The translations under genes and the position numbers were made by a program. This document shows, piece after piece, positions 4,849 through 19,788 of a stretch of 21,445 bases of DNA. The notes below the pieces were generated by a model that ran no database searches, was not told the origin of the DNA, and saw only the letters and a list, made by a program, of their open reading frames with translations. Source of the DNA: a virus. Location of the stretch: IMG/VR virus record IMGVR_UViG_3300034190_004097, positions 1-21,445 of that record. The stretch is one strand, 5' to 3'. Position 1 is the stretch's first letter, and each line of letters begins with the position of its first letter.

Positions 4849-6066
4849 ATGTTATTCCAAACCATAGACGATAAAAAAGAATGTTCTGGCATCTTTCACG
4901 GTGGCAGTATGACCTACAACCCAGAAGAGTTCCCTGATGACCTGACCAGAACATGGAAGTATACAGCATCCATGGAAGGTTACAGAGGGGTTGACTATGC
5001 GGAGATATATGCTCTAGGTAAGACACTCGATGAGATATGCCCAGAGCACTTACAGGATGAGTGGAAGATTGTTAAAGAAAGAATGCAGGCTTTCTTTAAG
5101 GCAAATGCCACTGCCAAGATCAGCACATCGCAACATTGTTTGTTTGAATTGATCCCAGAGAAGTTTCTAAAAGACCTGTGTAATATGAAAAACCTGATCA
5201 GTGACTGGGTTATCGAGAACACAAAACGACCACCAAATTATAAACACTTGCTATCTACTTTGGAAATGCTTCGTGATGTTGAAGCTTACGATATTAATAT
5301 TGATCCCCTAAAGGTTCGTGCCATTAAAAATGAGCCAACTGCTAGATTGGTACTTGATAGACTCAGCAGAGGTTACACAAAAATTAAATACAACCTGTTT
5401 TCCACCAGAACAGGTAGGCTAACTTGCACACAAAGATCCTTCCCAATATTCACCTTAAAGAAGCAGCATCGTGAAATCATCGTGCCTTCAAATGATATGT
5501 TTGTTGAATTGGATTTTAACGGTGCTGAGTTGAGGACTCTGCTAGCTCTTAGCGGACAGGAGCAACCAACTGGTGATGTGCATGATTGGAATGTAAAAAA
5601 CGTTTTTGATAGCCAGGTTTCACGAGAAGAATCAAAAGTATTATTCTTTTCGTGGCTGTATGGGTCTGGCTCGGAAGAATTGAAAAAGTGGAGAAGTTCA
5701 CTGTCGAAGGTTTATAACACTAGGACGCTAAAATCCAAACATCTGGATGTTGATATGATTATGACCCCATATCATAGAGAGATCGCAGCCAGCGAGCGTT
5801 TGTTTATCAACTATCTAATCCAATCGACGACGGCTGATTTGTGCTATGAGCAGTTTAGGAAAGTTTGGGATATCATCAGGGGCACCAACAGCGAGGTGGC
5901 TTTTGTTCTGCATGATGCGATTGTTGTTGATTTATCCCTGAGTGACAGACCGTTGCTAGAAAAAATGATGAATGTCATGGCGCAAACTAGGTATGGTCAG
6001 TACGGCGTCAATGTTAGCATTGGTAAGAACTATGGCGATATGAGGAAGACGAAACTTGGCTTATAG
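4849..6066 (+). CDS. Compact family A DNA polymerase (polymerase domain only)
   Basis: A 405-aa template-directed DNA polymerase. Motifs in order: STRTGRL (185-191, the Arg equivalent to E. coli Pol I R668); motif A, VELDFNGAELR (219-229, Asp222 and Glu227); the O-helix, R259-K263-F267-Y271-G with exact Pol I R754/K758/F762/Y766 spacing; a Q-helix, NYLIQSTTADL, with Gln325; motif C, VLHDA, with Asp356; and a C-terminal VSIGKNYGDM like the Pol I end. The catalytic Asp pair is intact, but the usual Glu of HDE is Ala. The 180 residues before motif 1 show no DxE 3'-5' exonuclease motifs, and Pol I is more than twice as long. AAGGG at 4841-4845 is the likely ribosome site, though spacing is tight. 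The stop overlaps the next gene. Probable role: gap filling or Okazaki maturation, or main replicase. Confidence 0.85.
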   Translation: MLFQTIDDKKECSGIFHGGSMTYNPEEFPDDLTRTWKYTASMEGYRGVDYAEIYALGKTLDEICPEHLQDEWKIVKERMQAFFKANATAKISTSQHCLFELIPEKFLKDLCNMKNLISDWVIENTKRPPNYKHLLSTLEMLRDVEAYDINIDPLKVRAIKNEPTARLVLDRLSRGYTKIKYNLFSTRTGRLTCTQRSFPIFTLKKQHREIIVPSNDMFVELDFNGAELRTLLALSGQEQPTGDVHDWNVKNVFDSQVSREESKVLFFSWLYGSGSEELKKWRSSLSKVYNTRTLKSKHLDVDMIMTPYHREIAASERLFINYLIQSTTADLCYEQFRKVWDIIRGTNSEVAFVLHDAIVVDLSLSDRPLLEKMMNVMAQTRYGQYGVNVSIGKNYGDMRKTKLGL

Positions 6067-6886
6067 AATATTGGGTATCGGTACCGCAGCGTGCAAAACA
6101 GCAGAAGCCTTCAAGAGGGAAAAGAATTATCTAGTTGACGTGATTGACGATGAGACCCTTGGTGCTCATGCAGATATGGAGACGTATGAAAAGAAGTTCG
6201 ACTCTAAAAGTCTAGCCAAGGTATTCAAGAAGTATAGGAAGAACGACGAGGTACTAATAATAGTCAGCGGCTCGTCGGCATCTAACGGCAGCTTGTTGCG
6301 AATCGCTGAAATGATAAAACGTTGTTCATGTTCAATTCTTTACTTATACCCAAGCATAACTTGGTGCAGCCCAACAGAAAAAATTAATAATAAGATAACT
6401 TTTGGTGTTCTGCAAGAAATGACTAGATCTGGTCAATTTGAGCGTTTCTACATTATTTCAATGGAAGAAATGGAAAAGCATATAGATAAAGTAACTCTCA
6501 AGGAGGTGGAGTCGGAACTAAACAACAAGATATACTCCTTGGTCAGTATGCTGATATACATGGATCATGTAACCCCAGACCGAACAAATTATGAAGCTAC
6601 TCGACAGTCCACTAGAATTGTTAGTCTAGGGTACTTCTCAGACTCTGGAGAAGACCACCTTCTTTATCCCATTGACGAAGAAGATGTAAAAGAGAGAATT
6701 TATTATTTTGGGATTCCAGAGGATGAATTTACAACCACAGCCCTAATGGAGATAAAGAACCATCAAACGCTCAAGCTCGCTCAAAATTCAAGTACATATT
6801 TTAAGGCTTACTCAATGAAGGGAGAGATCAGCGTTAGATATTCTTTGTACTTAACGGACATTCCACAATCCACACCCTATTTATAA
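6056..6886 (+). CDS. Putative divergent FtsZ/tubulin-fold protein
   Basis: A 276-aa soluble protein. The start is TTG at 6056, with GAGGAAG at 6042-6048 seven bases before it, inside the end of the polymerase gene. The element order resembles the FtsZ GTPase core: strand plus glycine loop RILGIGTAACK (4-14) like FtsZ VIGVGGGGGN; a hydrophobic strand then SGSSASNGS (71-79) where FtsZ has GGGTGTG, followed by a helix LLRIAEMIKR and strand SILYLYPS as in FtsZ VVAEIAKE...LTVAVVT; FERFYIISMEEME (128-140) like VDTLIVIPNDRIL; then a long helix and LGYFSDSGEDH (191-201), like the FtsZ GTG-ASGEDR turn. The GTP signature loop is degenerate, so nucleotide binding is doubtful. This is a by-eye comparison; another Rossmann-like protein is the main alternative. 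Confidence 0.45.
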   Translation: MAYRILGIGTAACKTAEAFKREKNYLVDVIDDETLGAHADMETYEKKFDSKSLAKVFKKYRKNDEVLIIVSGSSASNGSLLRIAEMIKRCSCSILYLYPSITWCSPTEKINNKITFGVLQEMTRSGQFERFYIISMEEMEKHIDKVTLKEVESELNNKIYSLVSMLIYMDHVTPDRTNYEATRQSTRIVSLGYFSDSGEDHLLYPIDEEDVKERIYYFGIPEDEFTTTALMEIKNHQTLKLAQNSSTYFKAYSMKGEISVRYSLYLTDIPQSTPYL

Positions 6887-8531: not shown

Positions 8532-8951
8532 ATGACTACCAACAAAACACTTAGCGTCCATTATGTGGGCACATTCGATGACGGCACTGTATTTGATGAT
8601 TCCAAGAGCCGTGGCGATGCCTTGCAAGTTCAAGTAGGCGCTGGACAACTAATCCCTGGCTTCGAGCAGGCTGTATCGGAGATGGAGGTTGGACAAACTA
8701 AAAAGATCCGCCTACGTCCAGAAGACGCCTATGGACCAACTAACCCCACGCTCATTCAGGAGGTTGGCAAAGAGGCATTTGATGAAGGCTTCAACTTTCA
8801 GGTTGGTGAGTATGTTTCTGGTCAAGGAGAGAATGGAGAGCCTGTAACTGCACAGATTGTCAACGTTGAAGATACTAAGATAACTCTTGACTTCAACCAC
8901 CCAATGGCGGGCAAGAATCTTAACTTTGAAATTACAGCAGTAGAATCTTAG
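8532..8951 (+). CDS. SlyD-like FKBP-type peptidyl-prolyl isomerase
   Basis: A 139-aa cytoplasmic prolyl cis-trans isomerase and chaperone. The FKBP half-domain is clear: LSVHYVGTFDDGTVFDDS, then VGAGQLIPGFEQAVSEMEVG and KKIRLRPEDAYG. It is followed by an insert of about 50 residues in the place of the SlyD insert-in-flap chaperone domain (about 67-115), and then DFNHPMAGKNLNFEITAVE, which is near-identical in pattern to the SlyD NHPLAGKxLxFxVxVxxV end. It lacks the His-rich metal tail of E. coli SlyD. AAAGGAG at 8516-8522 precedes the start. Placement between SSB and RecA genes suggests that it helps fold phage replication proteins; this is inference. A phage FKBP is uncommon in my experience. 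Confidence 0.9.
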   Translation: MTTNKTLSVHYVGTFDDGTVFDDSKSRGDALQVQVGAGQLIPGFEQAVSEMEVGQTKKIRLRPEDAYGPTNPTLIQEVGKEAFDEGFNFQVGEYVSGQGENGEPVTAQIVNVEDTKITLDFNHPMAGKNLNFEITAVES

Positions 8952-11627: not shown

Positions 11628-13151
11628 ATGACCGATCAAAGGTTGACAGAAGAAGATAGCTTTTCTAAGTTTGGCAAAAGCTTTCAAGAGAAATTGGGTA
11701 AGTTGATCTTACTTGATCGCTCATTCGCTAATCAGATGACTGAAGTGCTGGATATCAAGTTTCTAGAACTTCGATATTTGCAGGCATTTGTAGAACTCAT
11801 TTTTCAGTACAAAGAGAAGTACAGTGTCCACCCAACATTTGAAACAATGGTTTCGGTTATTAGAACTGAGATGGATGACTATCCCGATGTAGTACGCAAG
11901 CAGGTGATCGAATACCTTTCTAAGCTGAAAACTAATCAAATAAGTGATGAAGATTCTGATTTTGTCAAGGAGAAGTCGTTAGACTTCTGCAAGAAGCAAA
12001 AACTCAAAGAAGCCATCCTTAAATCCGTGGGCTTGTTGCAGACGTCATCCTTTGACGAGATCCATAAGGTTATTGATACAGCCCTCAAGCTTGGTCTGGA
12101 TGATAGTCATGGTCATGATTTTGTCCAAGACTTTGAACAAAGATATATTATGAAGGCTAGAGATCCTGTGATTACAGCATGGCAAGAGGTTGACAAGATT
12201 ACACGAGGTGGTCTTGGCAAGCGAGAGCTTGGTGTAGTTATTGCTCCAACTGGAGCGGGCAAATCAATGGCTCTGGTACACCTTGGCGCTATGGCAGTTG
12301 CTATGGGTAAGACTGTCATGCACTATACTTTGGAGCTAGCAGAAGGAGTGGTGGGAATGCGTTACGATTCTTGTCTCACTACGATCCCTCTGTCGAACCT
12401 ACACGACCATAAAGATAAGATCAAAGAAAAAATTACTACCCTAGATGGGCAGCTAATTATTAAAGAATATCCTACAAAGTCTGCAACTACAAAGACTTTG
12501 GAGTCGTCGCTAGAGAGGCTTCGACAAAGAGGCATTGAGCCCGACATGGTTATTGTCGATTATGCTGATCTGTTGCGCCCTGTAGCTACTAATTACAGGA
12601 GCGAGCATCGCCACAATCTTGAGTCAATTTATGAAGAGTTGCGAGGCATTGGACAGAAATTTGACCTACCAGTTTGGACAGCCAGCCAAACTAATAGAAG
12701 TGGGTTGAATGCGGAGGTTATTACTATGGAATCAATCAGCGAGGCTTTCAACAAATGCTTTGTAGCTGATTTCATTTGCACAATCTCCAGAACAGCAGAA
12801 GATAAAGTTGAAGGCGGTGGTCGCATGTTTATCGCTAAGAATAGAAACGGACCCGATGGCATCGTCTTTCCAATGGAGATCGACACTAGTAGAGTCAAGT
12901 TGAGGGTTTTGCAACCAGAGGCTGGCTCGGACCTAAACTCGGTAGTCTCTAGAACCCAGCAGGAACAGAAAGAACACTTGCAGCAAAAGTATCAAAAGTA
13001 CAAGAATAAGAAACAGAAGATGCAGGACACAAACAACAACCAGAAGGCAGCAAGTTCGCAGCTTAGTGGATTAAACAAAGAAGAATTTAGAAAGCTCGCC
13101 CAAAAGCAAGCTAACCAACAAGAACAAAAGGAGACTAACGTCAATGTCTGA
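11628..13151 (+). CDS. DnaB/gp41-like replicative helicase
   Basis: A 507-aa hexameric 5'-3' DNA helicase of the RecA-like SF4 family. The N-terminal helical domain is about residues 15-160. Walker A is APTGAGKS (206-213). The catalytic Glu follows in MHYTLE (236). Walker B is VIVDYADLL (308-316). The sensor segment is WTASQTNRSG (350-359), and the KNRNGPDG motif (404-411) carries the likely arginine finger. After residue 440 there is an unusual Gln/Lys/Asn-rich charged tail of about 65 residues, probably disordered and a docking site. A hairpin abuts its ribosome site. The stop lies 8 bases inside the RNR gene. The N-terminal length and no fused primase suggest that a separate primase gene lies outside the window. 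Confidence 0.9.
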   Translation: MTDQRLTEEDSFSKFGKSFQEKLGKLILLDRSFANQMTEVLDIKFLELRYLQAFVELIFQYKEKYSVHPTFETMVSVIRTEMDDYPDVVRKQVIEYLSKLKTNQISDEDSDFVKEKSLDFCKKQKLKEAILKSVGLLQTSSFDEIHKVIDTALKLGLDDSHGHDFVQDFEQRYIMKARDPVITAWQEVDKITRGGLGKRELGVVIAPTGAGKSMALVHLGAMAVAMGKTVMHYTLELAEGVVGMRYDSCLTTIPLSNLHDHKDKIKEKITTLDGQLIIKEYPTKSATTKTLESSLERLRQRGIEPDMVIVDYADLLRPVATNYRSEHRHNLESIYEELRGIGQKFDLPVWTASQTNRSGLNAEVITMESISEAFNKCFVADFICTISRTAEDKVEGGGRMFIAKNRNGPDGIVFPMEIDTSRVKLRVLQPEAGSDLNSVVSRTQQEQKEHLQQKYQKYKNKKQKMQDTNNNQKAASSQLSGLNKEEFRKLAQKQANQQEQKETNVNV

Positions 13152-15015
13152 GCCAGAACTATCAAACAAGATCCTATCTGATATAACAGTTTATATGAAA
13201 TATGCCAGGTTTTTACCTGAAGAGCAGCGCAGGGAAACGTGGTCAGAATTAGTAACTCGTAATATGAACATGCACATCAAAAAATACCCCAAGCTGGAAA
13301 CGGAAATCCGTGAGAAATATCAGCTTGTTTATGATAAGAAGGTACTCCCTTCGATGCGCTCCATGCAGTTCGGCGGAAGACCGATTGAAATCGCCCCCAA
13401 TAGAATTTTTAATTGCGCCTATCAACCTATCAACGATTGGCGTGCATTTGGTGAAACCATGTTTCTTCTTTTGGGCGGAACTGGCGTCGGCTTCTCCGTC
13501 CAGAATCATCACATCGAAGAACTACCAGAAATTCGTAAACCTAATCAGAAAAGAACTCGGAGGTACTTAATCAATGATAGTATTGAAGGATGGGCTGATG
13601 CCGTTAAATATCTTATGCGTAGCTACTTCTATGGCGGCTCGAAGCTACGATTTGATTTTAGTGATATTCGCCCTAAAGGTGCTCGCCTTGTAACCTCTGG
13701 TGGCAAAGCCCCAGGACCTCAGCCCTTGCGTGAGTGCCTGGTGAAGATCGAGGGCTTACTAAGCGAAAAAAGCGATGGTGACAAGCTAAGCTCAATTGAG
13801 GTGCATGATATTATTTGCCATGTGGCTGATGCTGTCTTGGCTGGCGGCATCCGAAGAGCCGCTTTGATTTCCCTGTTTTCAGCCGACGATGATGAAATGA
13901 TTGCAGCCAAGTCGGGCAACTGGTGGGAAACCAGCCCGCAGAGAGGCAGAGCAAACAACTCAGTCGTCTTGTTACGACACAAGGTTGATGAAGAGTATTT
14001 CATGAATCTTTGGGAGAGAATTAAGGCATCGGGAGCAGGCGAGCCAGGCTTTTATCTGTCGAATGATAAGGACTGGGGTACGAACCCATGCTGTGAAATT
14101 GCCCTTCGCCCACACCAATTCTGTAACCTGACTGAGGTCAATGCTAGCAACATTACTAGTCAAGAGGATTTGAATGAAAGAGTTGAAGCGGCTTCCTTCA
14201 TCGGTACCCTACAAGCGGGCTACACAGACTTCCATTATCTGCGCCCAGTTTGGCAGCGAACAACTGAAAGAGACGCACTTGTTGGAGTTTCTCTAACTGG
14301 TATCGCATCTGGTCGTGTGCTGGCAGATGGAATTTCCTTGAAAGAAGCATCCCAGAACGTAAAGAAGGAAAATGTTAGAGTGTCTGAGCTTATTGGGATT
14401 CGCCCAGCATCTCGGACTACCTGTGTTAAGCCAGCGGGCACAACGTCCCTTACCCTTGGGACGTCAAGCGGTATTCACGCCTGGCACAATGATTATTATA
14501 TTCGACGTCTGCGTGTAGGTAAGAACGAGGCAATTTACACACACCTATCGATTCATCATCCCGAACTTGTAGAAGATGATTACTTTAGACCTCATGATAC
14601 AGCCGTGATCGGGATTCCCCAGAAAGCCCCTGACGGCTCGATCCTAAGAACAGAGTCGGCTTTAGACTTGCTGAAAAGGGTTAAGAAGGTCACGAAGGAG
14701 TGGATTCGCCCAGGTCATCGAACGGGGCAAAACACCCACAACGTCTCAGCCACTATCTCGATCAAGGATGATGAGTGGGAAGAGGTTGGAAAGTGGATGT
14801 GGAAGAACAATGTTAGCTACAATGGACTTAGCGTGCTTCCTGACGATGGTGGCACTTATGTTCAGGCACCGTTTGAGAATTGCACCAAGGAGCAATACGA
14901 AGAGATGGTCAAGTCCCTGTCCTCTTTGGATCTTAGCACCATTGTGGAATTTGATGATAACACTGACCTCAAGGGTGAAGCTGCTTGTGCTGGCGGAGCT
15001 TGTGAAATAACTTAA
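13144..15015 (+). CDS. Adenosylcobalamin-dependent ribonucleoside-triphosphate reductase (class II)
   Basis: A 623-aa monomer-type class II RNR that makes dNTPs from NTPs using B12 chemistry. All residues expected from the Lactobacillus leichmannii enzyme are visible. Cys91 lies in RIFNCAYQP. NPCCEIALRPHQFCN holds the Cys316/Glu318/Cys327 set, with the same 11-residue Cys spacing as C408/C419 there. The C-terminal CAGGAC pair (615, 620) has the 5-residue spacing of C731/C736. TTCVKPAGTTSLTLGTSSGI is the usual barrel motif. It is about 115 residues shorter than the 739-aa bacterial enzyme. AGGAG lies about 10 bases before the ATG, inside the end of the helicase gene. It needs cobalamin from the host or medium and works with or without oxygen. 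Confidence 0.93.
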   Translation: MSEPELSNKILSDITVYMKYARFLPEEQRRETWSELVTRNMNMHIKKYPKLETEIREKYQLVYDKKVLPSMRSMQFGGRPIEIAPNRIFNCAYQPINDWRAFGETMFLLLGGTGVGFSVQNHHIEELPEIRKPNQKRTRRYLINDSIEGWADAVKYLMRSYFYGGSKLRFDFSDIRPKGARLVTSGGKAPGPQPLRECLVKIEGLLSEKSDGDKLSSIEVHDIICHVADAVLAGGIRRAALISLFSADDDEMIAAKSGNWWETSPQRGRANNSVVLLRHKVDEEYFMNLWERIKASGAGEPGFYLSNDKDWGTNPCCEIALRPHQFCNLTEVNASNITSQEDLNERVEAASFIGTLQAGYTDFHYLRPVWQRTTERDALVGVSLTGIASGRVLADGISLKEASQNVKKENVRVSELIGIRPASRTTCVKPAGTTSLTLGTSSGIHAWHNDYYIRRLRVGKNEAIYTHLSIHHPELVEDDYFRPHDTAVIGIPQKAPDGSILRTESALDLLKRVKKVTKEWIRPGHRTGQNTHNVSATISIKDDEWEEVGKWMWKNNVSYNGLSVLPDDGGTYVQAPFENCTKEQYEEMVKSLSSLDLSTIVEFDDNTDLKGEAACAGGACEIT

Positions 15016-15064: not shown

Positions 15065-15295
15065 ATGGCTACCCTAAATTTTATTATGCCTAAAAGCCTG
15101 AAAGACGGCTTTTGCGCACGTCAACCTAAACAGAATAAGGTCAAGCATAGCTGGTTACCCTCAGGACAGACCCGTGCCCTCCCAGGAGGTAGTGTTGCCA
15201 TAGAGTGCTACTGTAGGCATTGCAACGAGCGTGAGTGGAGCACAGTAACAAAAGTAGAGTTCGTAAAACTTACAAAACAATGGAGCGAGTTATAA
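15065..15295 (+). CDS. Small Cys/His-rich protein, possible zinc-binding
   Basis: A 76-aa protein. Cysteines at 17, 48, 50 and 53 with His28 and His52 (ECYCRHCNEREW) could form one zinc site, for example Cys17/His28 with Cys50/Cys53. It is basic, without membrane segments or signal peptide. GAAAGGAG at 15050-15057 is a strong ribosome site about 7 bases before the ATG. The stop and the next start overlap as TAATG, so it is coupled to the GroES-like gene. No family is recognised. It may be a small nucleic-acid-binding or adaptor protein; that is speculation from composition. Confidence 0.55.
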   Translation: MATLNFIMPKSLKDGFCARQPKQNKVKHSWLPSGQTRALPGGSVAIECYCRHCNEREWSTVTKVEFVKLTKQWSEL

Positions 15296-15552
15296 TGAAG
15301 CCAGTAAACAGAAGACTAATGGTCGAGCCCTATGAAGAGGAGCAGGACAAAAGCTCTTTCATCATTCCAGAGGAGTACCAAGAAAAGTCACACATAGCTT
15401 ATAAGATTACAGCCACTTCTAATGATTGCAGCTTGGGTTTAGACGTAGGCGATATAGTGGTTGCACACAGCACAGACCCAGAGATTATCCACTATGAGGG
15501 TAGGCAGTATCATCTGTTGTTAGAAAATCGTGTGGTTTGTGTGGCTAGCTAG
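15295..15552 (+). CDS. Compact GroES-like co-chaperonin
   Basis: An 85-aa protein that matches GroES in layout: MKPVNRRLMVEPYEEE for the first strand, SFIIPEEYQEKSHI in the place of the mobile loop and IVL-type tripeptide, LGLDVGDIVVAH for the KVGDxVLF strand, and EGRQYHLLLENRVVCV for the closing strand. It is about 10 residues shorter than GroES, mainly in the mobile loop, which has lost the usual Gly-Gly. In T4, gp31 replaces GroES so that GroEL can fold the capsid protein; a similar role is likely here. GGAGCGAG lies 5-13 bases before the ATG. Earlier in-frame starts in the preceding gene are unlikely because this ATG has the ribosome site and the family N-terminus. Confidence 0.8.
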   Translation: MKPVNRRLMVEPYEEEQDKSSFIIPEEYQEKSHIAYKITATSNDCSLGLDVGDIVVAHSTDPEIIHYEGRQYHLLLENRVVCVAS

Positions 15553-15553
15553 C
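15544..15553. other. Palindrome holding the stop codons of two convergent genes
   Basis: GCTAGCTAGC carries the TAG stop of the GroES-like gene (15550-15552, plus) and the TAG stop of the VWA gene (15549-15551, minus). There is no intergenic space and no terminator hairpin, so the two transcripts must overlap as antisense RNA unless other control exists. Confidence 0.85.
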
Positions 15554-16802
15554 CGCCTATACACAGGTCCTCAAATATTTGCCTGATTTGCAAAAACACT
15601 GTTTCTGAATTGGCGGTTGGGGTGAATAGCCTTCTTTGTTCTGCATGTACGCACATGAGGAATGTATTGTGGTGTTCTTGAAGGGCGAAGACAAAAAGTT
15701 CATATCCTCCTGTGATAGCAAAGTTGCTTAACTCATTGCAGGACATCCCGATTTCTGTCTGAGCTTGTTCGTCGGTCATGGTAATGATAACCTTTTGTGC
15801 TCCTGACCTCCAAGAGAAAGGGTACTGATTCATGGTCCAATACATAGCATCTATCGTAGGCTCAAGCCCTGCGCTGGGGGCGTGCCGAGCATCCTCTAGA
15901 ATTTGTAAAAACTCATCAGCCCCTACAAAGTTGCTAATAAATTGAGCGTGTCTATGGTGAACTACAATATCCTCATCTCCACGGGTGCCCACGATAACTA
16001 GTCCAAATCGGAATGTACTAGTGATGGGATCACTCAGCAGTGGCTCAATGCCTCTTATCATTGACTCTATTTCATCATCAAACGAACCAGAAATATCGAG
16101 AACAAAAACTAAATCTACACCCCGAGAATCAAAACCCTCATCAACTTCCCCATCACAATCATTGTCTAGATTATCGCACACTTCTTCTTGGGGGATAATT
16201 TGCCTATCACAGGGTCCATCAAAGCCACCGTTAGTGCAGTATCGGACACCAGCACGACACTCCCCAACACCCATTGTTCCAGCGGGTCCTTCATAGCAAA
16301 CGATAGCAGTAGAATTTGCTATTCCCTCATCTATTGACCCATCGCAGTTGTTGTCTAGTCCATCGCATATCTCATCAGACGGACCAATGTGTCCGCTACA
16401 GTACACAGCGCCGTTATCGCAGGTCATAACTCCTGGGGTGCAGACCCCAACCCCATAAGAAGTACCCTCTACAAATCCACACAACTGATGCTTTTCTGGG
16501 TATGATTCGTCTATCTCGCCATCGCAGTCATTATCAATTCCATCGCATATTTCTTCGGAGGGACCTTTGGCACCCGTACACTCTGACCAGCCTTGAAAGT
16601 CGCAGGTTCTTAGTCCATAAGAGCACTGCCCTGGTCTTGCGGGTGGTGGATCTGTGACACCGTTAGGAAAATCTAATCCCTCGTGGTTGCACAATATTTG
16701 CTCACCTGGACGGCACTCAAGCGGCACAAGCTCCTCATCATCAGTACACGACTGACAAAAGACTAGTAAAACAATTATTAATAGCTTGGTTATCTTGTCC
16801 AT
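15549..16802 (-). CDS. MopE-repeat and VWA-domain surface lipoprotein
   Basis: A 417-aa exported protein. The N-terminus MDKITKLLIIVLLVFCQSC is a lipoprotein-like signal with the probable lipidated Cys at 19; the lipobox is imperfect. Three MopE-type repeats follow: EICDGIDNDCDGEIDE (84-99), a copy at 144-159 and another at 207-222, each rich in Asp and Cys and likely to bind calcium with disulfides. Residues about 229-415 form a von Willebrand A domain: MIDAS DISGS at 236-240 and the second-metal TD at 343-344. Such proteins are usually on the cell surface and in adhesion. The start at ATG 16802 gives a clean signal; a TTG 21 bases upstream does not. It overlaps the upstream gene by 13 bases. 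It has no known virion or replication role, so it looks like a host-derived cargo gene. Confidence 0.85.
   Translation of the reverse strand: MDKITKLLIIVLLVFCQSCTDDEELVPLECRPGEQILCNHEGLDFPNGVTDPPPARPGQCSYGLRTCDFQGWSECTGAKGPSEEICDGIDNDCDGEIDESYPEKHQLCGFVEGTSYGVGVCTPGVMTCDNGAVYCSGHIGPSDEICDGLDNNCDGSIDEGIANSTAIVCYEGPAGTMGVGECRAGVRYCTNGGFDGPCDRQIIPQEEVCDNLDNDCDGEVDEGFDSRGVDLVFVLDISGSFDDEIESMIRGIEPLLSDPITSTFRFGLVIVGTRGDEDIVVHHRHAQFISNFVGADEFLQILEDARHAPSAGLEPTIDAMYWTMNQYPFSWRSGAQKVIITMTDEQAQTEIGMSCNELSNFAITGGYELFVFALQEHHNTFLMCVHAEQRRLFTPTANSETVFLQIRQIFEDLCIGG
16137..16184 (-). repeat. MopE-type Cys/Asp repeat 3
   Basis: It encodes EVCDNLDNDCDGEVDE just before the VWA domain, 63 residues after repeat 2. 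The conserved Gly after the first CD is Asn here. Confidence 0.8.
16326..16373 (-). repeat. MopE-type Cys/Asp repeat 2
   Basis: It encodes EICDGLDNNCDGSIDE, the closest copy to repeat 1, with small changes at the variable positions. Confidence 0.8.
16506..16553 (-). repeat. MopE-type Cys/Asp repeat 1
   Basis: It encodes EICDGIDNDCDGEIDE, the canonical putative metal-binding repeat. The next copy is at a spacing of 60 residues. Confidence 0.8.
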
Positions 16803-17257
16803 TCGGCTACGCTCTCTAAGCAAGCCTTCTGATCATGAAAAAGTTTCATCTTAAACATCTCGCTACCAAGCCAGCTAAAAGATAATTGTTTTGCTGGTAG
16901 GTCATCGGGAATGTCTGCACTTAATATAATGGGAGGGTTCGCCTCCCTGCCTGGCATTGCGAATGCTAAAAGTAATTGATTTCCTTTTGAGGTCTGAATC
17001 ACGCCTCTGATCACGCCAACTCTATTAGCTGCGGGTATGCCTATGGCAATACGAGTCATAGAGTTAGGATTATTATCTAAGGTGTCTAACGTTTGGATAA
17101 CCCACAAGCAATTACGTTTTTGACCTTGTAGGTAGTAGGTTGTTTGCTTGGGTATTATGATTTGCGGCGAAGGCTCGGCAAAAGCAAAAAAAGATATTAT
17201 AGCAACAAGAGAGACTAATGAAAGTACAGAAGCTAAGACTATAGTTCTTTTGCGCAT
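16790..17257 (-). CDS. Exported or membrane-anchored hypothetical protein
   Basis: A 155-aa protein. A basic start (MRKR) is followed by a hydrophobic segment of about 20 residues ending FFAFAEPSP. This is either a signal peptide cut after AFA (about residue 28) or an N-terminal anchor. The remainder is beta-rich and resembles a small periplasmic domain, with two cysteines that could pair. No family is recognised. It overlaps the downstream VWA lipoprotein gene by 13 bases and follows another exported protein by 9 bases, so the three form one minus-strand operon. It probably acts in the envelope with the VWA protein; an accessory or partner role is inferred only from linkage. Confidence 0.6.
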   Translation of the reverse strand: MRKRTIVLASVLSLVSLVAIISFFAFAEPSPQIIIPKQTTYYLQGQKRNCLWVIQTLDTLDNNPNSMTRIAIGIPAANRVGVIRGVIQTSKGNQLLLAFAMPGREANPPIILSADIPDDLPAKQLSFSWLGSEMFKMKLFHDQKACLESVAEWTR

Positions 17258-17266
17258 CCTTGCATA

Positions 17267-17563
17267 TTACTTTGCTTCCCCAGCATAGGTCACGAAAGGA
17301 AGCTTAGTTATCTCCTTGTATAGGGGCTTTTGAGTTTCCATGTCCATGAACTTTACGCCCTTTACAAGAGTAACTAGGACTTGCTTGGTAATATTTACGT
17401 CGTCTTTGGTATATTTCCATCGACCCTCAGTAGCTTCTTTCCAAGCCTGCTGTATAACAATTGAGGCTTGCTTCTGGCTCTCATTATTGACCTCGCCCCC
17501 AAAAGAAGCTGAAGGAGATAGTAGTAAAAACGATATTGTTGCGATGATTGTTAGAATTTTCAT
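17267..17563 (-). CDS. Small secreted hypothetical protein
   Basis: A 98-aa protein with a Sec-type signal peptide, MKILTIIATISFLLLSPSASFG, probably cut before GEVNNES. The mature part is about 75 residues, helical and charged, without cysteines, and ends in KLPFVTYAGEAK. It is the first gene of the minus-strand envelope operon, starting 70 bases from the divergent protease gene. No ribosome site of good quality precedes the ATG. No family is recognised; a periplasmic location is the only firm inference. Confidence 0.6.
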   Translation of the reverse strand: MKILTIIATISFLLLSPSASFGGEVNNESQKQASIVIQQAWKEATEGRWKYTKDDVNITKQVLVTLVKGVKFMDMETQKPLYKEITKLPFVTYAGEAK

Positions 17564-17633: not shown

Positions 17634-18530
17634 ATGCCTCATATTTACTACATGAGAGTAAAATTACCGATCCTAAGATTAGCCACTCTGCTGGTGTTAT
17701 TACAAATGGGCTGCATGGGTGGATGTTATTCCACCAAGCAAGTGGTCAAGAAAGATGACAAGCCACACGAAAGGATGCCCTTCGCATCTTTTGTACGAAT
17801 TGAGGCAACTCATGCTATCCAGGCATGTCAAACTATAACTGACAAAGATGGCAAAGAGGGCGAGCGATGCACAGTAGGTGCCGTTAGGTATACTTCGTCA
17901 GGAGCCATCATCGGTCATAGCGAAGTAGACCCTACAATCGCATACGCTTTGACTGCGGGACATTCTTGCCAAAAGAAGATAAAGAATAAGAAAATGGCAG
18001 GGTTCTCCTTGAACACGGTGGCTAGCACTTATGTCACTTTGTCCTATCGAGGCGTGTTGAAGGCAGCAGAGATAGTTGCATATGAGATGACTTCGGATGT
18101 GTGCATACTCAGAGTGACTGGCTACAAGGCTAAGAAGCGCCCCAAAGTAATTCCAATTTCTAAAAAGATGCCAAAGATGGGCGAGAAGGTATACAACCCC
18201 GCCGCACCCAGAGGTATTTTTGGTCCAGGGATGTTGCTTATGTTTGACGGTTATTATGCAGGTGTTGGATATAAAAACTATATGTTCTTCACGTTACCAA
18301 CAAAGCCAGGCTCAAGCGGCTCGCCTATTTTGAATGAGAAGGGAGAGCTAGTATCGATGATATTTGCAGGATTCCCAGCCATGGAAAACATCGGGCTAGG
18401 CTCAAATCTAAACGCAGTTCGTACATTTGTAGCCGAGACAATTGTGATATCAGAGATGGACCTGTGGGCGAAAAAGAATATGAACTTAGATTCTACTGAA
18501 TCGAATACCATAGAGCCACCGAAACCGTGA
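17634..18530 (+). CDS. Trypsin-like (S1 family) serine protease lipoprotein
   Basis: A 298-aa exported protease. The N-terminal hydrophobic signal ends at LLQMGCMGGC, giving two possible lipidated cysteines (27 or 31); the in-frame ATG at 17652 (MRVKLPILRL) makes a more usual signal and may be the true start. The catalytic triad is visible: His110 in YALTAGHSC (like TAAHC), Asp155 in SDVCILRV, and Ser228 in KPGSSGSPIL (like GNSGGP). No PDZ domain follows; the C-terminus is Pro/Ser-rich. No ribosome site is evident. Its stop and the next start overlap as TGATG, coupling it to a single-pass membrane protein and a site-2 protease, which invites comparison with DegS and RseP. A role in phage-directed envelope proteolysis is an inference. 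Confidence 0.85.
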   Translation: MPHIYYMRVKLPILRLATLLVLLQMGCMGGCYSTKQVVKKDDKPHERMPFASFVRIEATHAIQACQTITDKDGKEGERCTVGAVRYTSSGAIIGHSEVDPTIAYALTAGHSCQKKIKNKKMAGFSLNTVASTYVTLSYRGVLKAAEIVAYEMTSDVCILRVTGYKAKKRPKVIPISKKMPKMGEKVYNPAAPRGIFGPGMLLMFDGYYAGVGYKNYMFFTLPTKPGSSGSPILNEKGELVSMIFAGFPAMENIGLGSNLNAVRTFVAETIVISEMDLWAKKNMNLDSTESNTIEPPKP

Positions 18531-19003
18531 TGCCTCCAGCAAATCAGCGGGAGCGTGAAGCATATCAGAGAATTAAAGAGAACGCATATAACGCCATGCA
18601 CGAGCCGCAGGTCTACGACGTAACACCAGAGGCTATGCCTAAGACGAATTATCTGTCTGGCTTGGTGTGGACTTCTATGGTGGCAACATTAGTTTGTGCT
18701 ATTTTCATGGGCTTTTTATTATATCTTTATAATCAGATAGATTTAGAGGGAAGCCTACAGAAAGCTACCAATCATGCAGTGGTCAACCTTGAGCGGGTTA
18801 TCTCTAAGCAGAGCGAAGAAATAAACAATCTAAAAGAAGAAAACAAAAAGATTCATAATCATATAAAGTTTTGGACGCCCATAGATTGCAAGCCTAAAGA
18901 AAAATGGGTGATACCAGGCATCGGCTTGCCAGAGATACCAATCCAGCGCCAAAGCAGAAATAAAATACAAAGGTATGGTGACTTCCAATGCTTCTCTTAT
19001 TAG
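18530..19003 (+). CDS. Single-pass membrane protein with periplasmic coiled coil
   Basis: A 157-aa protein. Residues 1-42 are polar with Arg/Lys-rich helices (RERE, RIKENAY). Residues 43-67 (LSGLVWTSMVATLVCAIFMG onward) form one transmembrane helix, and about 74-113 form a charged coiled coil (NLERVISKQSEEINNLKEEN). The last 45 residues are basic with two cysteines (120, 154). By the positive-inside rule the N-terminus is likely cytoplasmic. The start is ATG 18530, overlapping the protease stop (TGATG); a GTG at 18527 is also possible. It overlaps the site-2 protease gene by 16 bases. The topology is that of an anti-sigma-like intramembrane protease substrate, but an i-spanin-like or scaffold role is equally possible. 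No family is recognised. Confidence 0.6.
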   Translation: MPPANQREREAYQRIKENAYNAMHEPQVYDVTPEAMPKTNYLSGLVWTSMVATLVCAIFMGFLLYLYNQIDLEGSLQKATNHAVVNLERVISKQSEEINNLKEENKKIHNHIKFWTPIDCKPKEKWVIPGIGLPEIPIQRQSRNKIQRYGDFQCFSY

Positions 19004-19788
19004 TAATAATATTATCATTAGTTTTTATTCATGAGCTTGGGCATTATGTCGTCGGTCGTTTGTGCGGCGTCGGCATCCAAGAATTCTCAGTGGGCTTTGG
19101 ACCGAAAATTTTTTCATTCAACGCATTTGGCAACAAGTGGTCTCTCGGTCTACTGCCTCTCGGCGGCTATGTAAAGTTCGAGGGTGAAGAAGATTATAAT
19201 AATACAACACGAAATCCTAAGTCTTTTTGGGCAGCACATCCACTAAGGAGAATGATAATAGCCCTAGCAGGACCAGCTACAAACCTAGCTCTACCTTATG
19301 CTATATTTTTCTTTTACTTGTGGGGTATGCCTTGGTCAGATGTTAAAGCACCCGATGGTTCAAATGTTGGCACGGTTAGTGCCCCATGGGCTTGGAAGGG
19401 AAGTGTTGACACAACACATAAAATGTATTATAATATATACAAATCAATAGACATCATAAAAGACAGGGGAGTATCAGTAAAGGACGTCGGCGGACCCGTA
19501 GCTATCTACGAGATCACAGAACAGGCACAGGCAAGATCAACCCAAACTAAAGACAACGGCTTTATTTATCAGTGGATAGCTTTCTTGAGTATCAACTTGG
19601 GAATAATTAATTTACTACCAATCCCTTTACTAGATGGCGGACATGTGGTATTCTCTATAGCAGAGACAATAATGGGACGTAAAGTTAAGTACAGGACTCG
19701 TGCTTGGCTATCCTATGTTGGTTTGGCATTTGTGGTAGGAATAATGGCGTTAGCAATCACTTCAGATATAGGAAGGTTGATAGGATAA
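18988..19788 (+). CDS. Site-2 protease (M50 family), PDZ-less
   Basis: A 266-aa intramembrane zinc metalloprotease. HELGH (15-19) in the first helix gives two His ligands and the catalytic Glu. GPATN (95-99) corresponds to the GPxxN motif. NLLPIPLLDGG (208-218) gives the third ligand, Asp216, in the C-terminal core helix. The LPLGGYVKF segment and a KSFWAAHPLRRM loop are typical of RseP-type enzymes. At 266 aa it is much shorter than RseP (about 450), and between the second core helix and the DGG helix there is only about 100 residues with no recognisable PDZ repeat. All catalytic residues are kept, so it should be active. It overlaps the upstream coiled-coil gene by 16 bases. A perfect sigma-70-like promoter lies inside it. 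Confidence 0.9.
   Translation: MLLLLVIILSLVFIHELGHYVVGRLCGVGIQEFSVGFGPKIFSFNAFGNKWSLGLLPLGGYVKFEGEEDYNNTTRNPKSFWAAHPLRRMIIALAGPATNLALPYAIFFFYLWGMPWSDVKAPDGSNVGTVSAPWAWKGSVDTTHKMYYNIYKSIDIIKDRGVSVKDVGGPVAIYEITEQAQARSTQTKDNGFIYQWIAFLSINLGIINLLPIPLLDGGHVVFSIAETIMGRKVKYRTRAWLSYVGLAFVVGIMALAITSDIGRLIG
19406..19434 (+). promoter_or_regulatory. Perfect sigma-70 promoter inside the site-2 protease gene
   Basis: TTGACA (19406-19411), exactly 17 bases, TATAAT (19429-19434), with ATA following. All twelve consensus bases match. It would transcribe the last part of the M50 gene, the 78-aa and 120-aa genes and, with the 20386 promoter, the DnaE gene. Confidence 0.7.

Follow-up and report, generated by a model that had tools for sequence, protein, structure and literature searches.

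Two stripped-down envelope-stress proteases, one coupled to a small membrane protein, in large uncultured bacterial viruses

The window (the whole of the 21,445-base virus record IMGVR_UViG_3300034190_004097) contains three intact plus-strand open reading frames between positions 17634 and 19788. The first, TRYP (17634-18530), encodes a trypsin-like predicted lipoprotein protease of 298 amino acids with an HtrA/Deg-type fold and no PDZ domain; the second, MID (18527-19003, GTG start), encodes a single-pass membrane protein of 158 amino acids; and the third, M50 (18988-19788), encodes an RseP-family site-2 protease of 266 amino acids which lacks PDZ domains. TRYP and MID overlap by 4 nt and MID and M50 by 16 nt (18988-19003, plus strand), the latter overlap being suggestive of translational coupling, and the original prediction of three consecutive, overlapping genes is thereby confirmed. 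For the pairs tested, dN is far below dS in all three genes, indicating purifying selection: between the window and its relative L022, pN and pS are 0.076 and 0.695 for TRYP, 0.157 and 0.742 for MID, and 0.043 and 0.405 for M50. TRYP, MID and M50 are real genes and not a chance arrangement of reading frames.

Divergently from TRYP, on the minus strand, lie three genes for exported proteins. These are P98 (17267-17563), a predicted secreted protein of 98 amino acids; P155 (16790-17257), a protein of 155 amino acids with an N-terminal hydrophobic span; and a predicted lipoprotein with VWA/MopE motifs (15549-16823). The trio accompanies TRYP in 18 of 18 contigs, and the stretch it occupies in the window (15549-17563) is arguably the more constant feature of the locus. 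Its VWA/MopE gene also provides a hint of the host. At E 1e-20 it matches 18 of 77 genomes in the phylum of a Myxococcaceae MAG and 0 of 80 in the phylum of a Methylobacterium; at 1e-10, two of the five genomes tried were matched, a third Myxococcales MAG being without a match. The matches listed fall within residues 34-247, which is the motif-repeat part of the protein and lies outside the VWA domain. The MopE-type motifs may therefore point, weakly, to a Myxococcota host. A second MopE-type lipoprotein (681 amino acids; L171 573-2618) and a prepilin-like protein (L175 8738-9157), both named by eye, are encoded on a 174-kb contig among the relatives. Elsewhere in the window are genes for an FKBP-type isomerase (8532-8951), a relative of B12-dependent ribonucleotide reductases (13144-15015) and a GroES-like protein (15235-15552). 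A further window protein of 276 amino acids (6056-6886), for which Pfam, PHROGs and NCBIfam gave no match within the limits set, is possibly like a protein of contig G017 (188189-189211; L189 8189-9211) bearing a GGGGGTG motif, which we take to resemble that of tubulin/FtsZ.

TRYP matches Pfam Trypsin_2 (E 3e-11), and the catalytic residues His110 (17961-17963), Asp155 (18096-18098) and Ser228 (18315-18317) are invariant in 11 of 11 aligned sequences, in keeping with its original description as a trypsin-like protease with an intact triad. An AlphaFold model (pLDDT 77.6, pTM 0.71) aligns with DegP (3otp_A), DegQ (3stj_A) and DegS-deltaPDZ (2qf3_C) with Z scores of about 23 and rmsd values of 2.1-2.6 over 187-191 residues. 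TRYP thus has the Deg-type protease fold, with its His/Asp/Ser triad, that characterises the DegS/HtrA proteases. It is the fold comparison, unlike the sequence search, which places Deg proteases at the top; by sequence, the PDB matches are led by the Staphylococcus Spl proteases, with plant Deg1 also present. The C-terminal PDZ domain is absent, since the chain stops 15 residues past the last predicted helix, and no PDZ domain is found among the Pfam matches up to E 0.1. A search of BFVD returned many trypsin-like viral proteins, PADLOC gave only a weak match (E 0.001), and the INPHARED phages contained none (E up to 0.01). TRYP had also been called a lipoprotein, and here the support is mixed: the first lipobox, LLQMGC, departs from the usual pattern, but its cysteine is present in all 11 rows and distant relatives have LLTSC or SATGC, so a lipoprotein is likely.

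M50 matches Pfam Peptidase_M50 (E 6.5e-57) with no other Pfam domain, and scores 191.9 bits against the NCBIfam RseP model TIGR00054, for which the cut-off is 147.55. The HELGH motif lies at 19030-19044 and Asp216 at 19633-19635. Residues H15, E16, H19 and D216 are invariant across the 19 rows of our alignment A5, and all 19 rows contain the HExxH and NxxPxxxLDG motifs of the RseP family (rows L024, L025, L051 and L064 begin one codon late, leaving M1 uncounted, and the conclusions are unaffected). The site-2 protease with HELGH and an Asp ligand is borne out on this basis and, together with the fold of TRYP, so is the analogy that had been drawn to DegS and RseP.

What M50 does not retain is the region between the two catalytic segments of RseP. 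The alignment breaks at the PDZ block, with RseP residues 12-137 corresponding to profile positions 5-123 and residues 307-443 to positions 123-264, such that residues 138-306 of the solved RseP are skipped. The distance from HExxH to NLLP is measurable in 27 of the 29 contigs with M50 (the gene is broken or cut off in the other two), and is 193 residues in 25 of them, 194 in one and 196 in one. Among the 80 loci returned from cellular genomes, the same distance is at least 261 residues in 71 of 73 measurable homologues. Loss of the block is not unique to phages, since two rare cellular RseP homologues (L091 from a Clostridia MAG and L158 from a Margulisbacteria MAG) are also without it. Group I site-2 proteases have at least one PDZ domain and M50 has none, so we describe it as the core of an RseP-family protease from which the group I domain is missing. 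Judged by its sequence, M50 is an RseP-family enzyme from which the PDZ block is missing and which is predicted to be proteolytically active.

A quick maximum-likelihood tree, built from 19 phage and 72 cellular rows (91 in all), places the phage M50s on one side of a branch with SH-aLRT support of 99. Within them the copy at locus L061 is outermost (81), followed by the clade of the window (99) and a clade in which TRYP lies elsewhere (99). One copy is split into two reading frames in the otherwise near-identical contig 3300032085_001218 (L003/L020), reflecting either a sequencing error or a real loss. Among the INPHARED phages, 22 records matched M50 at less than 60% identity, and in none did a single stretch cover 80% of the query; those annotated probably represent host RseP carried along.

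With PDZ domains absent from both enzymes, the phage could be running a form of the DegS-RseP pathway that lacks a sensor. In the cell the PDZ domains sense stress and restrain cleavage; without them the two proteases would, once infection has begun, cut host anti-sigma factors or other N-in membrane regulators at will, and MID would serve as the phage's gate or timer. We consider this unlikely.

MID contains one hydrophobic span and matches no Pfam family above its cut-off. Helices are predicted at residues 5-22, 42-71 and 73-116 in a low-confidence model (pLDDT 69, pTM 0.27), the second being approximately the span (18650-18739) and the third a helix or coiled coil (18743-18874). The charge bias flanking the span is modest and the N-in topology that it suggests is plausible. 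In these respects the protein resembles what was originally proposed, namely a single-pass, N-in protein with an outer coiled coil. The mean majority fraction is 0.73 in the span, 0.68 in the coiled coil, 0.56 in the cytoplasmic part and 0.47 in the tail, and close to the N-terminus an RER motif hardly varies. Because the span and coiled coil are better kept than the cytoplasmic part, conservation fits a role in the membrane and periplasm better than one in which a freed cytoplasmic piece acts as a message. Compared with Pfam and NCBIfam, the cytoplasmic part gave no match to a DNA-binding or anti-sigma family, in a search by which a segment of only ~41 residues could be missed. Relatives of MID were found neither in the INPHARED phages (E up to 0.1) nor in a cellular collection of 84,980 species genomes, where the search rested on two short conserved patterns and a divergent homologue could therefore escape it. 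The PDB matches are to the coiled-coil protein geminin, with E 0.29 or worse.

A membrane-anchored coiled coil in a phage raises the question of a spanin, and the original prediction had named an i-spanin as the alternative. Like lambda Rz, as described in the available parts of PMC6139136, MID would be N-in with a periplasmic coiled coil, and the Rz-like spanin family phrog_739 of PHROGs matches seven of eight MID members (E up to 0.1, best 7.3e-5). This profile is unspecific, however, with matches in 14 of 14 control genomes too. Furthermore, no lipoprotein gene of 35-250 amino acids was found on the strand of MID within the readable 2.5 kb in 32 of 32 contigs, a distance beyond which an o-spanin could still lie; as a positive control, the same scan recovered TRYP in 12 of 12 cases. 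Separate pairs of a small membrane protein and a coiled-coil protein exist in two of the large contigs and are other candidates for lysis. In G001 the pair lies upstream of a gene that by eye resembles a large terminase, and has no match to a spanin family in PHROGs; in G017 the coiled-coil protein of a similar pair does match spanin families (5 of 15 rows, best 1.6e-4). We therefore find it very unlikely that MID is an i-spanin or other lysis protein.

Profile searches of IMG/VR yielded 27 MID loci and 27 M50 loci, and the resulting table comprises 32 contigs and the window. These 33 are partly redundant: in these proteins the window shares 99-100% identity with three of the contigs, L006-L009 are close to one another, and L051 and L052 share the same coordinates. 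MID is present in 32 of the 33. M50 directly follows and overlaps it in 28 of the 31 MID contigs with readable downstream DNA, the overlap being 4-28 nt from the aligned start or 16-40 nt from the first start codon. L045 ends after MID, and in three contigs (L028, L029 and L039; 12-33 kb and probably fragments) no M50 follows. L028 and L039 were read and searched whole without finding M50, and L029 was scanned with profiles with the same result. The place of M50 is taken by a phytanoyl-CoA-dioxygenase-like gene (named by eye) in L028 (8404-9348) and L039 (8478-9356). As an observation on the flanks of MID-M50, leaders like MKKLLTEWRKFLKE or MKITKSQLRKIIKEE are common to many unrelated proteins in L010, L011, L012, L027 and L036; we presume these to be possible capsid-targeting sequences.

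The relationship of TRYP to this pair is looser. TRYP was found in 18 contigs and adjoins MID-M50 in 12 of them, and it is adjacent in only 12 of the 28 contigs where MID and M50 overlap. Twenty contigs were searched whole, giving TRYP in 11, MID in 19 and M50 in 17, figures in which absences carry little weight because many contigs are fragments. All eight contigs of at least 118 kb contain TRYP. In five large contigs (G003, G007, G010, G014 and G016) it lies 61-112 kb from MID as measured along the linear contig, and in the first four of these, which make up half of the eight contigs just mentioned, 62-111 kb separate TRYP from M50; in G016 the distance to MID is 77 kb and the M50 region is cut off. 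In G017 (235,681 bases; locus L061), TRYP and M50 are separated by 1.9 kb, in which the VWA, P155 and P98 genes lie, and MID is absent. The search for the three-gene order thus gives a divided answer: the order is kept in the clade of the window, where the M50s are 64-91% identical to that of the window (near-identical contigs apart), and TRYP is elsewhere in other relatives. There are two modules, MID-M50 and TRYP with its divergent trio, which adjoin in one clade. A three-gene cassette was rejected as the conserved unit, given the distant TRYP in five large contigs and the missing MID in G017, and the original claim of one cassette with MID as its substrate is not supported. Relatives exist in which the middle gene is lacking and others in which the proteases are far apart, both of them outcomes that the original prediction had named as refuting it. 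Neither MID nor M50 strictly needs the other, since M50 occurs without MID in G017 and MID without M50 in three contigs.

These arrangements bear directly on the cascade that the gene order suggests, in which TRYP would make a site-1 cut in the outer domain of MID, M50 a site-2 cut in the span, and the N-terminal piece would carry the signal. The parts resemble those required, with a DegS-like fold in TRYP, an RseP-family M50 and a MID which resembles a type II single-pass protein. All three genes co-occur in G001, G002, G003, G007, G010 and G014, the order persists in the clade of the window, and TRYP and M50 are again near each other in L061. The proximity in L061 and the clade of the window may be ancestral, which would favour some link between the proteases, albeit one for which MID is not needed, as L061 has both proteases without it. 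The would-be signal, moreover, is less conserved than the span and coiled coil (its RER motif excepted) and, short as it is, matches no family of the expected kinds, and in five large contigs the site-1 protease is encoded far from its presumed substrate. With the two gene groups only sometimes side by side, we judge the cascade improbable.

A different use of the same parts follows the SpoIVB/SpoIVFA/SpoIVFB logic: MID would inhibit M50 until removed by TRYP, and the true substrate would be another phage or host protein. The succession of MID and a PDZ-less site-2 protease is what this predicts, and SpoIVB does cut SpoIVFA, helping to free SpoIVFB, according to the portion of PMC9042235 available. 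Yet M50 has no CBS domain in Pfam and belongs to the RseP family instead, TRYP is unlinked in clade B, and three contigs have MID with no M50 downstream, making this a rather unlikely account. We give about the same low weight to M50 as a membrane housekeeper which clears signal-peptide remnants or small membrane proteins left by exported phage proteins, with MID structural and unrelated. RseP is described as removing signal peptides and degrading small membrane proteins (parts of PMC8144685, PMC10470546 and PMC4597795), and the phage encodes several predicted exported proteins, but the near-constant overlap of MID and M50 would be left unexplained.

The large uncultured bacterial viruses examined here carry two stripped-down envelope-stress proteases, one of which is coupled to a small membrane protein. 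The reading we tentatively prefer, while granting it somewhat less than an even chance, pairs an ungated phage site-2 protease with MID, which would be its partner in the membrane, whether as gate, as adaptor or as first substrate. This reading draws on the overlap in 28 of 31 contigs set against the far less regular adjacency of TRYP, on the missing PDZ block, and on the span and coiled coil as the best kept parts of MID; an RseP without PDZ domains beside an overlapping single-pass gene fits control of the SpoIVFB type. Module 1 would then consist of an RseP-type enzyme that has lost its PDZ gate and is made together with MID. M50 would most likely cut the spans of N-in single-pass proteins without a fixed prior site-1 cut, and MID would most likely sit on it through the conserved span and coiled coil, in the manner of SpoIVFA with SpoIVFB, which likewise has no PDZ domain. 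In the end the enzyme may be aimed at regulators in the host membrane or at other small membrane proteins. Module 2, made up of TRYP and the trio, would be exported as a set of its own and may supply module 1 where the two adjoin. The genes, their catalytic residues, the loss of PDZ domains, the pattern of linkage and the purifying selection are observed, whereas translational coupling, physical partnership, targets and purpose are what we infer. Counting against the partnership are the M50 of G017 without MID, the three contigs with MID and no M50, the low confidence of the MID model, and the 1.9-kb spacing in L061, which favours a protease link that this reading underplays.

Published work gives the loss of the gate some meaning. 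The available parts of three papers (PMC10202637, PMC4597795 and PMC9042235) report that E. coli RseP no longer requires site-1 cleavage in order to cut RseA once its PDZ domains are disrupted, that the PDZ tandem of RseP is thought to be a size filter, and that SpoIVFB, which has no PDZ domain, is controlled by partners in the membrane, including one that SpoIVB cuts. Loss of PDZ domains need not equal loss of control, if we follow the title of Hizukuri and Akiyama 2012, as cited in PMC4597795, by which sequential cleavage of RseA can proceed without PDZ domains. Among the papers listed for the open-access literature, preprints aside, none reports a phage-encoded site-2 protease pathway, and the portions available of PMC7824862 and PMC10013915 contain nothing on phage M50. 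If M50 works as its sequence suggests, a natural gateless RseP is kept in a phage group, and would allow the purpose of the PDZ gate to be tested directly. Phages would then be acting on their hosts through intramembrane proteolysis, and MID, if indeed the partner, would offer a simple case for studying the way in which site-2 proteases are held and directed.

Four known systems invite comparison. A viral M50 gene has been described as an auxiliary gene with 99% amino-acid similarity to the copy of its Patescibacteria host (available part of PMC12993620); M50 genes lie on viral contigs in both cases, but by that description the copy there is host-like, whereas ours stand as a group apart in the quick tree. 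With the Rz/Rz1-type spanins MID shares one span, a plausible N-in orientation and a periplasmic helix resembling a coiled coil, and it differs in having ~41-45 residues before the span, no o-spanin within 2.5 kb, and a coupled protease gene. Compared with RseP/DegS/RseA, M50 has the catalytic motifs, core and C-terminal part of RseP and passes the TIGR00054 cut-off, and TRYP has the protease fold of DegS; however, both are without PDZ domains, TRYP is a predicted lipoprotein, the ~41-residue part of MID matches no anti-sigma family, and the genes are split into two modules. In the SpoIVF operon, the gene for the single-pass protein SpoIVFA precedes that for SpoIVFB. The SpoIVFA-SpoIVFB/SpoIVB system of Bacillus subtilis is similar in that a PDZ-less site-2 protease is encoded directly after a single-pass protein and, in one phage clade, a serine protease gene lies upstream, although the 266-residue M50 is of the RseP family and has no CBS domain, and TRYP has no PDZ domain.
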